Shown here: piece after piece, positions 25,069-32,409 of the stretch
Layout: every line of letters starts with the position of its first letter
Numbering within the stretch: position 1 is the stretch's first letter
Assembly (NCBI GenBank): GCA_902806355.1
Contig: CADCWI010000092.1
Coordinates: 62,001-126,000 of the forward strand
Direction: 5' to 3'
Length of the DNA stretch: 64,000 nucleotides
Source of the DNA: an uncultured Thermomicrobiales bacterium
Lineage (GTDB): Bacteria; Chloroflexota; Chloroflexia; Thermomicrobiales; UBA6265
The notes under the pieces: generated by a model
The model's database searches: none
The model's input: the letters and a program-made list of their open reading frames with translations, nothing else
Told to the model about the DNA's origin: nothing
Translations under genes and position numbers: made by a program

Positions 25069-27585
25069 TTACTTGGCGACGAAGTTGACCATTCGACCCG
25101 GCACGAACACCTCGCGGACGACCGTTTTCCCTTCCAGGTGCTCAGCGACCCGCTGGCTCGCCTTTGCCATCGTCAGCACCTCGGATTCGGTGGCGTCGGC
25201 GTCGACAGTCAGCTTGTCACGAACCTTGCCGTTGACCTGCACCGGAATCTCGACCGTCCGCACCGCCGCCAGTGACGCAATCCAGACAGGCCAGCTCTGC
25301 TGGTGCACCGAGTAAGGCTTCCCGAGGCGACTCCACATCTCCTCCGCCGCGTATGGCGTGCTCGGGGCCATCAGCAGCGTCAGCGTTTCCATCGCTTCTC
25401 GCCATGCCGGCGTCCGGGTCAGCAGTCCGTCCTTCTGCTTCATGAGCTCGTTCGTGAACTCAATCAGGGCAGCGATCATCGTGTTGAACTGAAAACCGTC
25501 CAGATCATCCGTCACCCGCTTGATGGTGCGATGCGTTAGCGAACGCAGCCCATCAACGCCCTCGACCTTCTCGTCGTCAGCCGGGACAGAGGTTCCTGTT
25601 TCGGAGACCAGCTGGAAAGCCCGCCGAATGAACCGCTGCATTCCCGTGATTCCGCGATCGTTCCACGGCCCGCCCTGCTCCCACGGTCCCAGGAACATCA
25701 GGTGCAGCCGCAAGGCATCCGCGCCGTACTCCTCAACCAGTTCATCAGGGCCGATCTGCGTGCCGCGGCTCTTGCTCATCTTCGTGCCTTCGATCGACAG
25801 AATCATCCCCTGATTCCTGAGACGCGTGAACGGCTCACTGTGATCGACCAGCCCGATATCCCGCAGGACCCGGGTGAAGAAGCGCGCATACAGGAGGTGC
25901 AGGATAGCGTGCTCGATGCCGCCGCAATACAGGTCGACGGGGGTCCACTGCTTTACCCGCTCGACATCGAAGGGCGCGCCTGCTTCTTCTGGGCTGGTGT
26001 AGCGATACCAGTACCAGGACGAATCGACGAACGTATCCATCGTGTCCGTTTCCCGGCGCGCGTCACCGCCACAGGTTGGGCAGGTCGTGTGCAGAAACGC
26101 CTCATGGCTGACGAGCGGGCTCTGGCCGGTTGGAGCGAACTCGGCATCCAGCGGGAGCGTCACCGGCAGCTGGTCCTCGGGTACCGGTACGATCCCGCAA
26201 GAATCGCAGTAGACGATCGGAATCGGCGTTCCCCAATACCGTTGCCGAGAGATCAGCCAGTCGCGCAGGCGGTAGCTAACTTCCGCCGAGCCTTTTCCCT
26301 GCTCGTCCAGCCACGAGATTACCGTTGAGACACTCTCCGGTACGGGCGTCCCATCGAATGGACCGGAATTGACCATCTTGCCGGGGCCGACGTACGCATG
26401 GGACATGGTTGCCGGATCGAGAGCGACATCGCCCTCCGGCTGTATGACTACCCGGATCGGCAGGTCGAACGCCCGCGCGAAGGCGAAGTCCCGCTCGTCA
26501 TGAGCCGGTACCGCCATGATCGCGCCTGTGCCGTAGCCCATCAGGACGTAATCGGCGATCCAGATCGGGATTCGCTCGTCATTGACCGGGTTGACGGCAT
26601 AGGCTCCGGTGAACACGCCTGTCTTCGGATGCGCTTCGTCCGTCGACTGCCGCTCGATTTCCGTCTCTCTTCTCGTCCGGTCGATGTACGCCTCGACAGC
26701 GTCCCGCTGCTCGTTCGTGGTTATCTGCGACACGAGCGGATGTTCCGGCGCCATCACCATGAACGTCGCGCCGAAGACGGTGTCCGGTCGCGTCGTGAAG
26801 ACCTCCAGCGCCTCGCCGGTGTCGAGCGAGAACCGCAGACGCGCACCTTCGGAGCGCCCGATCCAGTTGCGCTGCATCACCTTGACACGGCTTGGCCAGT
26901 CGAGATCATCCAGGCCGGTCAGCAGTTGTTCGGCGTATTCGGTGATCCGAAAATACCACTGCTCAAGATCACGTTTGTAGACTTCCGCTCCACAACGCTC
27001 GCAGATGTTGCCTTCGAGCACCTGTTCGTTGGCCAGCACTGTCTGATCGTTCGGGCACCACCAGACCGGTCCCGCCGCCCGATATGCCAGGCCCCGTTTC
27101 AACATCTGCAGGAAGATCCACTGGTTCCAGTGGTAGAACTCCGGCATGCAGCTCGCGATCTCCCGGGACCAGTCGATCATCGTGCCCATCACGTCGTACT
27201 GGCGGCGCATCTGCCGGATGTTGTCGAGTGTCCACGTCGCCGGGTGGATGTTGTTCCGGATCGCAGCGTTTTCCGCTGGCAGACCGAACGCGTCGAACCC
27301 CATCGGGAAAAGGACGTTATGTCCACGCATGCGTTGTAGCCGGGCGAAGGTGTCCGGAATCGCGAACGCGTACCAGTGACCGACGTGAAGGATCCCTGAC
27401 GGGTACGGGTACATCGTCAGCGAGAACCACTTCGGCTCCGGCCGATCATCTTCGACCCTGTACAGATCGGATTCCTGCCACGCCGCGCGCCATTTCGGCT
27501 CAACCACTGTTGAGTCATAGACGTGTGCGTCATCGAAGCCCGCGCTCGATGGATGTTGCGAAGTCGTAGTGGCTGTCGACGCCAT
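25069..27585 (-). CDS. leuS: Leucyl-tRNA synthetase
   Basis: Class I synthetase charging tRNA-Leu. The 838 aa product has the HIGH-type motif YPSGILHVGHWYAF, the CP1 editing domain (FTTRPDTVFGATF, YGTGAIMAVPAHDERD), the CRWYWGTP-like RQRYWGTPIPI segment, KMSKS (EGTKMSKSRG) and a C-terminal domain with VQVNGKVRDKL. A CxxC pair (ICERCGAE) replaces the usual CWRS segment. Regulation is by the T-box leader upstream (27640-28063): uncharged tRNA-Leu should favour antitermination. Confidence 0.97.
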   Translation of the reverse strand: MASTATTTSQHPSSAGFDDAHVYDSTVVEPKWRAAWQESDLYRVEDDRPEPKWFSLTMYPYPSGILHVGHWYAFAIPDTFARLQRMRGHNVLFPMGFDAFGLPAENAAIRNNIHPATWTLDNIRQMRRQYDVMGTMIDWSREIASCMPEFYHWNQWIFLQMLKRGLAYRAAGPVWWCPNDQTVLANEQVLEGNICERCGAEVYKRDLEQWYFRITEYAEQLLTGLDDLDWPSRVKVMQRNWIGRSEGARLRFSLDTGEALEVFTTRPDTVFGATFMVMAPEHPLVSQITTNEQRDAVEAYIDRTRRETEIERQSTDEAHPKTGVFTGAYAVNPVNDERIPIWIADYVLMGYGTGAIMAVPAHDERDFAFARAFDLPIRVVIQPEGDVALDPATMSHAYVGPGKMVNSGPFDGTPVPESVSTVISWLDEQGKGSAEVSYRLRDWLISRQRYWGTPIPIVYCDSCGIVPVPEDQLPVTLPLDAEFAPTGQSPLVSHEAFLHTTCPTCGGDARRETDTMDTFVDSSWYWYRYTSPEEAGAPFDVERVKQWTPVDLYCGGIEHAILHLLYARFFTRVLRDIGLVDHSEPFTRLRNQGMILSIEGTKMSKSRGTQIGPDELVEEYGADALRLHLMFLGPWEQGGPWNDRGITGMQRFIRRAFQLVSETGTSVPADDEKVEGVDGLRSLTHRTIKRVTDDLDGFQFNTMIAALIEFTNELMKQKDGLLTRTPAWREAMETLTLLMAPSTPYAAEEMWSRLGKPYSVHQQSWPVWIASLAAVRTVEIPVQVNGKVRDKLTVDADATESEVLTMAKASQRVAEHLEGKTVVREVFVPGRMVNFVAK

Positions 27586-27641
27586 GGAGTTCCCTGTCTT
27601 CCTTGCCGGGTCAACCGCAAGACCCGCAGTGCGTTAAATGC

Positions 27642-27683
27642 AAAAACACCTCCGTCCCGGTCAGGGACGAAGGCGTTCGTGAC
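27642..27683 (-). terminator. T-box attenuator terminator of leuS
   Basis: On the minus strand a 13-bp stem (ACGCCTTCGTCCC with GGGACGGAGGTGT, loop TGACC) is followed by TTTTT. Its 5' arm competes with the antiterminator formed with the T-box sequence at 27692-27706. Confidence 0.9.
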
Positions 27684-27745
27684 GATCGCTTCCGCGGTAC
27701 CACCCTGGTTGATCAACGCGACGGCCGCTTCGACACGTTCCTGAG

Positions 27746-27818
27746 TGGAGCTGAGGGGGCTCGAACCCCTGACCTCAACACTGCCAGTGTTGCGCTCTCC
27801 CAGCTGAGCTACAGCCCC
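27746..27818 (-). tRNA. tRNA-Ala (anticodon GGC)
   Basis: 73 nt that fold as a full cloverleaf: acceptor GGGGCTG/CAGCTCC with one G-T pair, D-arm TAGCTCAGCTGGGAGAGC, anticodon stem CAACA/TGTTG with loop CTGGCAG (anticodon GGC), variable AGGTC, T-arm AGGGG-TTCGAGC-CCCCT, discriminator A. CCA is not encoded. It lies inside the leuS T-box leader, between Stem I/II and the antiterminator, on the same strand. Confidence 0.95.
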
Positions 27819-28069
27819 AGGAGCGTCGGTGTCGGACAACGACCGAGCGGTGATCCGCTCAGAACCCGATAACGGAGGCACCCGTCTTCAGCTCGCGTAT
27901 GCTCACCGGAGAGGCTCACGGGCGAGTTCGACTCGTGACTGGCATCTTCCACCGCCCGATGCCTCGCTGAACTTGAGTCTACTACTCCCGATCGACGCCT
28001 GACCATCCTGTGCGATGGTCTCTTGCCGTTGCGAGATCCCGGCTTTGCGGGACCTCTCACGACGCCCAG

Positions 28070-28099
28070 AGTATAGAGTGCGTCGAAGAGGAGTGTCAA
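28070..28099 (-). promoter_or_regulatory. sigma70 promoter of the leuS leader
   Basis: On the minus strand TTGACA (28099-28094) and TATACT (28075-28070) are 18 nt apart, a near-consensus pair. The start site should be near 28063, upstream of all T-box elements and of the tRNA. Confidence 0.88.
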
Positions 28100-28146
28100 T
28101 TCAATGAGTCAGTTGCCATTCCGCGTTCGTGAAGGAAGGATCCGCA

Positions 28147-28830
28147 ATGTCTGACAGGCATCTCGCCAATTCTCCTACGCCTGTGGACTCGTCGGATGGG
28201 CGGGAACACAACGACTCCACCGTCGAGCGGATCATGAGCCGACTTGACGAGATGCATACCGCCCGAGAGCAGGCAATCCGCGAGGGCCGTGACATCATCC
28301 GGAACTCGGCGAACGCGATTCGTGCGCTCCATCGCGGAGACGTGGCGGTCGCAACCGCACTGATCGACGAGACCGCCATGAAGATCCAGGCGGTCAGGAC
28401 CGCGACGGCGGCACATCCCAGCATCTACTGGGCCGGATATGTGCAGGACGCGATGAAGGAATATGCGGAGGCAGCCATCACGTCCGCGATTCTGCAGAAC
28501 GCCCCCGTTCCGTCACCCGAAACGCTGGGCGTTGAGGACGCCGCTTATCTGAATGGTCTTGCTGAGGCGGCAAGCGAACTTCGCCGGGACTGCCTTGATG
28601 CGTTGCGAGCCGCCGATACGGAGCGGGCTATTCATCTTCTCGACCACATGGACACTATTTACACCGAGCTAGTCATCGTCGATTTTCCGGATGCGATGAC
28701 TGGAGGGCTCCGCCGAACAACCGATCAGTTACGGGCCGTGCTCGAGCGCACTCGTGGAGACGTCACCCTTTCGGTGCGCCAGGAGCGTCTCGAGAAAGCA
28801 CTTCGTGCGAGAGAAGACCATCTGCGCTAG
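28147..28830 (+). CDS. Translin/TRAX-family protein
   Basis: 227 aa, all-helical. After a polar N-terminus, residues 40-60 (REQAIREGRDIIRNSANAIR) and 61-110 match the translin fold. KEYAEA at 104-109 aligns with the QEYVEA of human TRAX, preserving the two Glu of the E-x-x-E pair (105, 108). The C-terminus has DFPDAMTGGLRR and LERTRGDVTLSVRQERLEKAL, typical of translins. Translin-TRAX octamers (C3PO) are RNA-binding RNases. AAGGAAGGA at 28131-28139 supports the ATG at 28147. Its 3' end overlaps the convergent DUF192 gene by 68 bp. Confidence 0.82.
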   Translation: MSDRHLANSPTPVDSSDGREHNDSTVERIMSRLDEMHTAREQAIREGRDIIRNSANAIRALHRGDVAVATALIDETAMKIQAVRTATAAHPSIYWAGYVQDAMKEYAEAAITSAILQNAPVPSPETLGVEDAAYLNGLAEAASELRRDCLDALRAADTERAIHLLDHMDTIYTELVIVDFPDAMTGGLRRTTDQLRAVLERTRGDVTLSVRQERLEKALRAREDHLR

Positions 28831-31206: not shown

Positions 31207-32409
31207 ATGCGGTTATTCAATACGCAATCGCAGTCGATCGAACAGTTCGAGGTCATCAATGGACGCGTCGGAATCTATACATGTGGCATCACCCCCTATG
31301 ACACCACACATGCCGGCCATGCGTTCCTCTTTCTCACATTCGATGTACTCGTCCGATACCTGCGGGACCGTGGTCATGATGTGACGTACGTCCAGAACGT
31401 GACCGACATCGACGACGATATCCTGCGCAAGGCCGCTGAACTTGGCGTGCCATGGGATGACCTCGGTCGACGGGAGACGGCCAAGTACCGCACGGACATG
31501 CGGAACCTCAACGCACTCGATCCGGACCACTATGTCGCGGTGACAGCGCATATCAACGAGATCGTGGCCCTGATCTCCCAACTTGTGGACAGGGGAGTTG
31601 CCTACGAAGTCAACGGCAGCGTCTATTACGCGGTCGACAAGGACCCTGACTTCGGTAAGCTAAGCCACATCCCGAGGGGCGGCATGCTGGCGGTCGCGAA
31701 CGAGCGTGGCAACAAGCCGGACGATCCCAACAAGCGGGATCCCCTTGACTTCGTGCTGTGGCAGGCCGGTGCTCCCGGGGAACCAACCTGGGATTCACCG
31801 TGGAGCAAGGGCCGGCCAGGGTGGCACATCGAGTGCAGCGCGATGTCCATGGCCTACCTTGGAAACACCGTGGACATCCATGGCGGGGGTTACGATCTCA
31901 TCTTCCCGCACCATGAATGCGAGATCGCGCAGTCCGAGATCGCGACCGGAGTCAAACCATTCGCCCGATACTGGATGCATGTTGCCATGGTCAAGTATCA
32001 GGGCGAGAAGATGAGCAAATCACTCGGCAACCTGGTGCTGGTCAGTGACGTCCTCAAGGATTCGAGCGCCGATGCGTTTCGGCTCTACCTGCTTTCCAAT
32101 CACTACCGCACCGAATGGGAATACGAGGATGACACGATTGACCAGTGGGCGTCGGTAGCGAACGATCTCCGCGAAGCTGCCGAGTTCCCAGCGTACGGTG
32201 TCGAGGACATCCTGGACATGTCGCGCCAGCGACAACGGTTCTATGATGCGCTCGACAACGATCTGGATACGCCTCAGGCGATCACGGTGCTGCACGAGAT
32301 CGCTCAGGCAATCCTTGAAGCTCCTGAGGAAGACGATATCCGCCAGGCACAGGACACCTTGCGTGCCCTCAGTGACGTGCTCGGTCTCGATCTCCAGGGA
32401 TCCCGTTAG
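31207..32409 (+). CDS. cysS: Cysteinyl-tRNA synthetase (MshC-like motif)
   Basis: Class I ligase activating cysteine. 400 aa: YTCGITPYDTTHAGHA (25-40; Cys26 is a zinc ligand, THAGHA the HIGH-type signature), NVTDIDDDIL, WHIECSAMS (Cys210), FPHHECEIAQSE (His235 and Glu239, zinc ligands as in CysRS) and EKMSKSLGN (267-275). The CGITPYD form is typical of MshC, while HHExEIAQSE is CysRS-like. The C-terminus is about 60 residues shorter than E. coli CysRS, truncating the anticodon-binding part. I favour CysRS. TATACT at 31064-31069 may be its -10 box. Confidence 0.85.
   Translation: MRLFNTQSQSIEQFEVINGRVGIYTCGITPYDTTHAGHAFLFLTFDVLVRYLRDRGHDVTYVQNVTDIDDDILRKAAELGVPWDDLGRRETAKYRTDMRNLNALDPDHYVAVTAHINEIVALISQLVDRGVAYEVNGSVYYAVDKDPDFGKLSHIPRGGMLAVANERGNKPDDPNKRDPLDFVLWQAGAPGEPTWDSPWSKGRPGWHIECSAMSMAYLGNTVDIHGGGYDLIFPHHECEIAQSEIATGVKPFARYWMHVAMVKYQGEKMSKSLGNLVLVSDVLKDSSADAFRLYLLSNHYRTEWEYEDDTIDQWASVANDLREAAEFPAYGVEDILDMSRQRQRFYDALDNDLDTPQAITVLHEIAQAILEAPEEDDIRQAQDTLRALSDVLGLDLQGSR

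Follow-up and report, generated by a model that had tools for sequence, protein, structure and literature searches.

A leucine-specific T-box leader holding an intact tRNA-Ala(GGC) gene in its Stem III loop recurs across bacterial phyla

The leader of the leucyl-tRNA synthetase gene (leuS) in an uncultured Thermomicrobiales bacterium raises the question of whether a T-box riboswitch can hold an intact tRNA gene within its own core, and of what such an arrangement would mean for the two RNAs. A sequence-only reading of the window (the whole stretch of DNA analysed here, 64,000 nucleotides long) had placed a tRNA-Ala(GGC) gene inside a leuS T-box leader, both on one strand. Covariance models for the T-box (RF00230) and tRNA (RF00005) and an ARAGORN search agree with this placement and put both RNAs on the minus strand. 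The leader parts named in that reading, from promoter to terminator, were all found, likewise on the minus strand:

28070..28099, minus strand: sigma-70-like promoter of the leader, TTGACA-18-TATACT (consensus scan, 11/12 matches)
27913..28004, minus strand: T-box Stem I (RF00230 alignment and sequence)
27986-27983, minus strand: AGTA of Stem I (sequence, RF00230 alignment)
27953-27947, minus strand: apical GGTGGAA of Stem I (sequence, RF00230 alignment)
27924..27926, minus strand: specifier codon CUC, leucine (sequence GAACTCGCC)
27870..27875, minus strand: F-box CCGTTA, Stem IIA/B region (RF00230 alignment)
27856..27860, minus strand: purine string RRRxG (GAGCG) ahead of Stem III
27851..27855, minus strand: Stem III 5' strand GATCA (RF00230 alignment; covariation in relatives)
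27746..27818, minus strand: tRNA-Ala(GGC) gene in the Stem III loop (ARAGORN, RF00005)
27785-27783, minus strand: anticodon GGC of the nested tRNA-Ala
27711..27715, minus strand: Stem III 3' strand TGATC (RF00230 alignment; covariation in relatives)
27710-27709, minus strand: AA after the Stem III 3' strand
27692..27706, minus strand: antiterminator 5' strand AGGGTGGTACCGCGG (sequence, RF00230 alignment)
27702-27699, minus strand: T-box bulge UGGU within the antiterminator 5' strand
27663..27671, minus strand: antiterminator 3' strand TTCGTCCCT, overlapping the terminator (RF00230 alignment, consensus scan)
27644..27678, minus strand: intrinsic terminator-like hairpin (consensus scan: 15 pairs, T-rich tail)
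25069..27585, minus strand: leuS, leucyl-tRNA synthetase, 838 aa (TIGR00396)

The window leader is a complete leucine-specific T-box with a full tRNA-Ala(GGC) inside. The RF00230 alignment extends over 28004-27660 on the minus strand and covers the whole model (1-219 of 219) with 76.4 bits and an E value of 8.4e-17 for the 601 bases searched in the window. The RF00005 match at 27818-27746 scores 64.4 bits (gathering 29), and ARAGORN calls a tRNA-Ala with anticodon GGC at the same position; the covariance search proposed in the sequence-only reading thereby returned both RNAs. The T-box score lies under the Rfam gathering score of 93, so a default Rfam scan of the window lists the tRNA only. 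A model score below threshold had been named beforehand as an argument against the nesting, and this formally applies to the T-box and not to the tRNA. The alignment puts 131 nt of the leader into the Stem III loop, and we take this insert as the cause of the low score, since 5 of 15 nested relatives exceed 93 bits. The Stem I specifier CUC matches the amino acid of the gene downstream, which was identified as leuS in the family search (TIGR00396, 1007.1 bits against a cut-off of 548.4), and the UGGN bulge and antiterminator are mutually exclusive with an intrinsic terminator (sequence, consensus scan). The tRNA has a cloverleaf, the GGC anticodon, G3:U70, and A73, and does not encode CCA. The window holds a single instance of a tRNA T-arm followed after 29-89 nt by a T-box bulge, a pattern absent from all 100 shuffles. 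Single-sequence energy folding gives the window leader no stability beyond that of shuffles (z 0.11). Adjoining the leader is a divergent gene (28129-28830, plus strand) that is weakly translin-like (PF01997, just below cut-off). Another gene (31207-32409, plus strand) encodes a short cysteinyl-tRNA-synthetase-like protein, which scores above the cysS cut-off (TIGR00435) and higher still for the mycothiol ligase MshC (TIGR03447), but below the cut-off of the latter.

The order read in the window is GAGCG / GATCA ... tRNA ... TGATC / AA / CC / AGGGTGGTACCGCGG. A 2020 review (PMC7583486) describes an RRRxG-Stem III-AA motif on either side of Stem III, which it counts among the elements of the discriminator sensing aminoacylation. 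The window sequence GAGCG-GATCA...TGATC-AA fits this motif, and the tRNA therefore occupies the Stem III loop, with the strands of the basal helix on either side. The earlier placement of the tRNA between Stem I/II and the antiterminator is correct in its order and can be made more exact as within the Stem III loop. The accompanying statement that processing of the tRNA would part Stem I from the antiterminator raises a real concern but needs amending: strands of the Stem III helix lie to either side of the tRNA and could keep the two pieces joined.

A genome scan for a tRNA T-arm followed by a T-box bulge, using one genome per species, identified at least 119 matching loci (given below by L numbers). 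Of the 119 matches listed, 86 coincide with a tRNA according to ARAGORN, 82 of them tRNA-Ala(GGC), which gives at least 82 loci with this gene directly ahead of a T-box antiterminator. The other four (L025, L065, L072, and L082) were considered as different nested tRNAs and rejected as a tRNA plus a likely chance match, with no T-box features by eye; no tRNA besides tRNA-Ala(GGC) was seen nested among the matches listed. The remaining 33 comprise L011, where a nested tRNA-Ala runs off the end of the locus, and 32 matches with no tRNA at that position. By their record titles, the 82 listed loci are distributed over Chloroflexota/Thermomicrobiota (including Thermomicrobiales), Bacillota (Syntrophomonas, Thermosyntropha, Pelotomaculum, Thermaerobacter, and Orenia), and Armatimonadota (Armatimonadetes); a single title reads Actinomycetes, and no phylum is given in a few. 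In all 15 nested loci tested with Rfam the RF00230 alignment extends across the tRNA, scoring above the gathering score in 5 (94.6 to 117.2 bits) and below it in 10 (87.6 to 35.1 bits), while T-box identity in the other 67 rests on motifs.

Prevalence was estimated with a similar exact pattern in whole genomes, in sets that overlap with the 82 listed loci, and the figures are lower bounds for the genomes sampled because the pattern is exact. In the phylum of L115, 18 of 251 genomes sampled match, 10 of them nested by ARAGORN. In that of Syntrophomonas palmitatica, 38 of 299 match, with 28 nested by ARAGORN, 1 masked (L178), 7 judged from the matched letters (3 of these being the genomes of L003, L011, and L051), and 2 not nested. 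The phylum of L033 yielded 12 matches in 43 genomes, 9 nested by ARAGORN, L265 nested with a repeat, and 2 not nested. In L265 (1223-1525), the 3' part of the nested tRNA is directly repeated ~230 nt on, with an inverted copy between, before the antiterminator. The search for the same nesting in related genomes, which the sequence-only reading had suggested, was thus successful in many species of several phyla. These scans indicate that the nesting is neither unique nor recent and that it recurs in many distantly related bacteria; a recent or chance insertion of the tRNA is rejected in view of this recurrence.

Both RNAs are well preserved in the 82 listed nested loci and the window (83 loci). 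When the acceptor start may shift by 1 base, all 83 nested tRNAs have 7/7 acceptor pairs, A73, and the G3:U70 pair of alanine identity. The anticodon stem is fully paired in 83/83, from 21 distinct arms, and the T-stem in 81/83; CCA is encoded by 49/83. On the T-box side, a G(A)ACTC-type specifier motif is found in 75/83 loci, the other 8 being 2 incomplete loci, 5 that read AACTC or GCTC by eye, and L077. The CGTTA core of the F-box is present in 73/81 loci with at least 120 nt upstream, and an equivalent of the antiterminator 3' strand in 79/79 loci with enough sequence, followed by a T-run in 71/79. The specifier position of L077 reads GAA-TTT-ATC and holds no leucine codon, though leuS follows.

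The covariation test of Stem III was anchored by the purine motif alone, and 78 of the 83 loci were usable, the 5 left out having no motif within 60 nt or being incomplete. Of 56 distinct strand combinations, 45 form the full set of four basal pairs, compared with a mean of 11.4 and a maximum of 19 in 2000 shuffles that ignore kinship, and 197 of 224 basal pairs form against a shuffle maximum of 158 (2000 shuffles, kinship likewise ignored). When strands were exchanged between loci, 5 pairs were reached in 231/1633 cases. These counts indicate that Stem III covaries around the nested tRNA. The AA after Stem III is kept in 76/83 loci and absent in 7/83, and by the rule of the script 19/83 loci have no Stem III helix of at least 5 pairs. 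Among 71 loci chosen for having at least 4 pairs, Stem III is 4 to 11 pairs long. A longer "staple" Stem III in nested loci was considered and set aside: the median is 7 pairs in these 71 loci and 5 in 21 plain loci, an unfair comparison, as the plain loci were not preselected on pairs and some were misread. The predicted fold keeps Stem III in 65/71, the acceptor stem in 52/71, and both in 47/71 of these loci, which were chosen for having Stem III. In 11/71 loci at most 3 nt lie between Stem III and the tRNA 5' end, so that Stem III partly pairs the tRNA 5' leader. Consensus folding of 26 compact relatives recovered the tRNA and not Stem III, on an alignment that is wrong past the second Stem III pair. 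In the consensus fold, GGUGG from the T-box sequence is the partner of the Stem III 3' strand (alignment A1, columns 115-130), a possible alternative pairing that would rival the antiterminator.

The distribution of promoter-like sites bears on whether leader and tRNA form one transcript. A consensus scan found such a site ahead of Stem I in 68/77 listed loci and between the specifier and the tRNA in 2/77; the upstream stretch scanned is roughly double the length of the other. From specifier to tRNA the median distance is 92 nt. In the window the same scan gave no such site in the interval from Stem I to the tRNA, where the sequence-only reading had allowed that a separate promoter might emerge. 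In 20 of the 82 listed nested loci (including L005, L021, and L045) a tRNA-Ala(CGC) lies ahead of Stem I, and the leader order is tRNA-Ala(CGC), Stem I, Stem II, Stem III[tRNA-Ala(GGC)], antiterminator. A promoter-like site occurs 41-74 nt ahead of the tRNA-Ala(CGC) in 19/20 of these loci and between the two tRNAs in 0/20. A promoter belonging to the nested tRNA itself is disfavoured by these counts and by the window. The T-box of these 20 loci is sandwiched by two alanine tRNAs.

Downstream, a leuS match (tblastn) starts within 1.5 kb in 63 of the 82 listed nested loci; in nine of the remaining 19 the sequence ends no more than 509 nt past the bulge, and ten have another gene first. Read from their translations, the ten intervening genes are six ilvE-like aminotransferases and four acyl-CoA-ligase-like genes; those of L005 and L033 are ilvE (TIGR01122, above cut-off), and that of L067 is an AMP-binding acyl-CoA ligase (PF00501). 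A branched-chain aminotransferase-like gene was noted after the nested T-box in L005, L033, L040, L043, L045, L059, L091, and L117. It precedes leuS in those loci where the contig reaches leuS, which suggests a leucine-controlled ilvE-leuS operon in the aminotransferase-bearing loci. The presence of ilvE after the nested T-box also fits leucine specificity.

A tRNA-Ala(GGC) pattern matches in 50/50 nested genomes, exactly once in 49 and twice in G310 (L054); 24 of the 50 were counted with a stricter pattern (once each) and the others with a looser one. The matches checked, 48 single ones and one of the G310 pair, fall in the nested tRNA in 49/49 cases; the remaining single match, that of L011, lies at its nested site by coordinates. 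The nested copy is therefore nearly always the sole tRNA-Ala(GGC) gene found in these relatives, although many nested genomes are metagenome bins, whose assemblies may lack a second copy. Single-copy status for the window species is inferred from the genomes of relatives. GCC and GCT together make up 104 of the 241 alanine codons in four genes of the window. Fifteen genomes mostly without nesting gave a similar count, with exactly one tRNA-Ala(GGC) in 14 and none by pattern in one.

Relatives also display other arrangements. Among the best 30 LeuS loci from 61 genomes searched in the class of L115, 14 are nested (including L223-L227, found only further upstream), six (L207-L212) carry tRNA-Ala(GGC) just upstream of the T-box, eight were classed as having a T-box without the tRNA, one (L204) has the tRNA without a T-box, and one has neither. 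In 30 loci from the class of L045, five are nested or nested-looking (L234, L237, L242, L243, and L248), the tRNA is upstream in L233, L240, L250, and L253, and the rest are not judgeable from the stretch covered. L203, a near relative of the window, has a 116-bit T-box with a plain Stem III hairpin (GATCGG-loop-CCGATC) whose basal sequence is identical to that of nested L022, and its single tRNA-Ala(GGC) match lies on the same contig ~8 kb away. T-boxes are thus found both with the tRNA and lacking it, and the tRNA has shifted into or out of Stem III. The sequence-only reading had regarded relatives with an outside tRNA and a working T-box as a sign of recent insertion; relatives that keep the T-box with the tRNA outside exist in some lineages, as one of several states, and provide no proof of a recent insertion here. 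L204 keeps tRNA-Ala(GGC) about 193-118 nt upstream of leuS with no recognisable T-box, and a hairpin with a T-rich tail is seen by eye after the tRNA.

A LeuS tree was reconstructed by a quick method. Of 204 loci with LeuS, 136 gave at least 600 aa; removal of 9 duplicate or odd rows, 7 of unknown state, and then 10 near-identical ones left 110 rows, with 10 states set by hand. Nesting requires 22 changes on this tree, 12 of them forced by well-supported branches, compared with a shuffled mean of 35.7. It occurs in both large clusters, in 24/42 rows of one (mostly Bacillota) and 36/62 of the other (mostly Chloroflexota/Thermomicrobiota). State "O" (none) is unreliable because the T-box ahead of ilvE lies outside the stretch covered in some loci. 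The LeuS tree does not settle gains versus losses of nesting.

Collectively, we consider it highly probable that the locus encodes a conserved, dual-output leader: a transcriptional T-box specific for leucine, with a functional tRNA-Ala(GGC) gene forming the loop of its Stem III. Leader and tRNA would be transcribed as one unit from a start ahead of Stem I. Stem I with its CUC specifier would read tRNA-Leu, and the basal Stem III helix with its purine flanks would complete the discriminator together with the antiterminator, the tRNA being extruded from the loop. RNase P and 3' nucleases would free the tRNA-Ala, and uncharged tRNA-Leu would turn on leuS, or ilvE-leuS. With the tRNA placed before the terminator, every leader transcript could supply tRNA-Ala, both when it ends there and when it continues into leuS. 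Most likely, the T-box decision falls within transcription and precedes excision of the tRNA; if the cut came early, Stem III would most likely join the two leader pieces.

Why the tRNA is nested is a separate matter. It may be a neutral passenger, landed in a Stem III loop that tolerates inserts, with nesting doing no more than sharing a promoter; this view is compatible with a dual output, and we regard it as finely balanced, leaning slightly against. Stem III stem and loop are described as variable in T-boxes in excerpts of PMC7583486, L203 combines an ordinary hairpin and a high-scoring T-box with a distant tRNA, and L207-L212 carry the tRNA just upstream, all of which a passenger would allow. 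Against it, one and the same combination of tRNA, loop, and leuS operon is seen in different phyla, usually with no tRNA-Ala(GGC) gene found besides the nested copy. Recurrence and usual sole-copy status indicate that the nested tRNA is kept, and a regulatory role of nesting is not thereby proven. Alternatively, the tRNA domain might contribute to control, with the antiterminator decision gated by how the tRNA folds, by its cleavage by RNase P, or by the state of its 3' end. The tRNA sits in the discriminator, and excerpts of PMC7583486 hold that Stem III and its purine flanks are needed for aminoacylation sensing. The short gap between Stem III and tRNA in the 11 loci noted above, with the 5' leader partly paired, points the same way. 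As an analogy and no more, PMC9433436 reports that base-pairing between the 5' leader and the 3' RCCA hinders assembly of the active RNase P complex; in the nested loci the leader pairs with the trailer instead. Relatives with T-boxes and no nested tRNA (L203, L207-L212) argue against such a role, which we consider rather unlikely.

Two further readings concern the order of events and the unity of the locus. RNase P might excise the tRNA and leave the T-box to act as a two-piece RNA, held by Stem III and bound tRNA-Leu, or the excision rate might set the decision window; this seems doubtful, and, if true, would tie leuS control to tRNA-processing capacity. That two separate units overlap by chance, the tRNA with its own promoter and the T-box a relic, is scarcely credible. 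The sub-threshold score of the window T-box and the tRNA of L204, kept with no recognisable T-box, could be read in this way. Promoter-like sites between specifier and tRNA in 2/77 loci only, their position ahead of tRNA-Ala(CGC) in 19/20 loci and between the two tRNAs in 0/20, and antiterminator strands kept in 79/79 loci all speak against it. The dual-output leader accordingly remains our preferred reading: a real, recurrent composite RNA in which a T-box leader holds an intact tRNA gene.

The placement is unexpected. The Stem III insert is an intact tRNA gene and is recurrent across phyla. If the proposed reading is correct, a tRNA has as its sole source a leader whose terminated form is usually deemed waste, and an RNase P substrate lies inside the sensing domain of a riboswitch. 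Nested leaders would then offer a handle on the speed of the T-box decision relative to RNA processing and on the tolerance of the discriminator. Default annotation can miss such T-boxes, as the window and 10/15 nested relatives score under the Rfam threshold. The sequence-only reading knew of no T-box with a tRNA so placed; no description of a T-box with a tRNA gene inside was found in the open-licence literature searched, though an earlier mention may exist, and no tRNA-bearing T-box appears in excerpts of PMC7583486, PMC7778990, PMC2494555, and PMC3766115.

Among known systems, the window leader shares with the class I transcriptional T-box (RF00230) of the leuS type Stem I, the CUC specifier, the F-box, the purine-flanked Stem III, the UGGU bulge, the antiterminator/terminator, and an aminoacyl-tRNA synthetase gene downstream. 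It differs in its Stem III loop, which is a complete tRNA-Ala(GGC), whereas several relatives have a plain short hairpin. Spacer tRNAs of rRNA operons are cut from a longer precursor, in which flanking strands pair across the processed region. Like tRNAs cotranscribed with rRNA or mRNA, the nested tRNA would come from a longer precursor, but here the flanks belong to the sensing domain of a riboswitch. Tandem T-boxes and arrays of a T-box with a ppGpp riboswitch are composite leaders in series, as described in excerpts of PMC7583486; the present leader is likewise composite, but with one RNA gene within the core of the other. A further comparison is with the tRNA-upstream relatives, which have the same tRNA-Ala(GGC), T-box, and leuS with the tRNA outside Stem I (L207-L212, L250, and L253), or a tRNA-Ala(CGC) as well (L233, L240, and L149), and in L207, L208, and L210-L212 Stem III reads as an ordinary hairpin.
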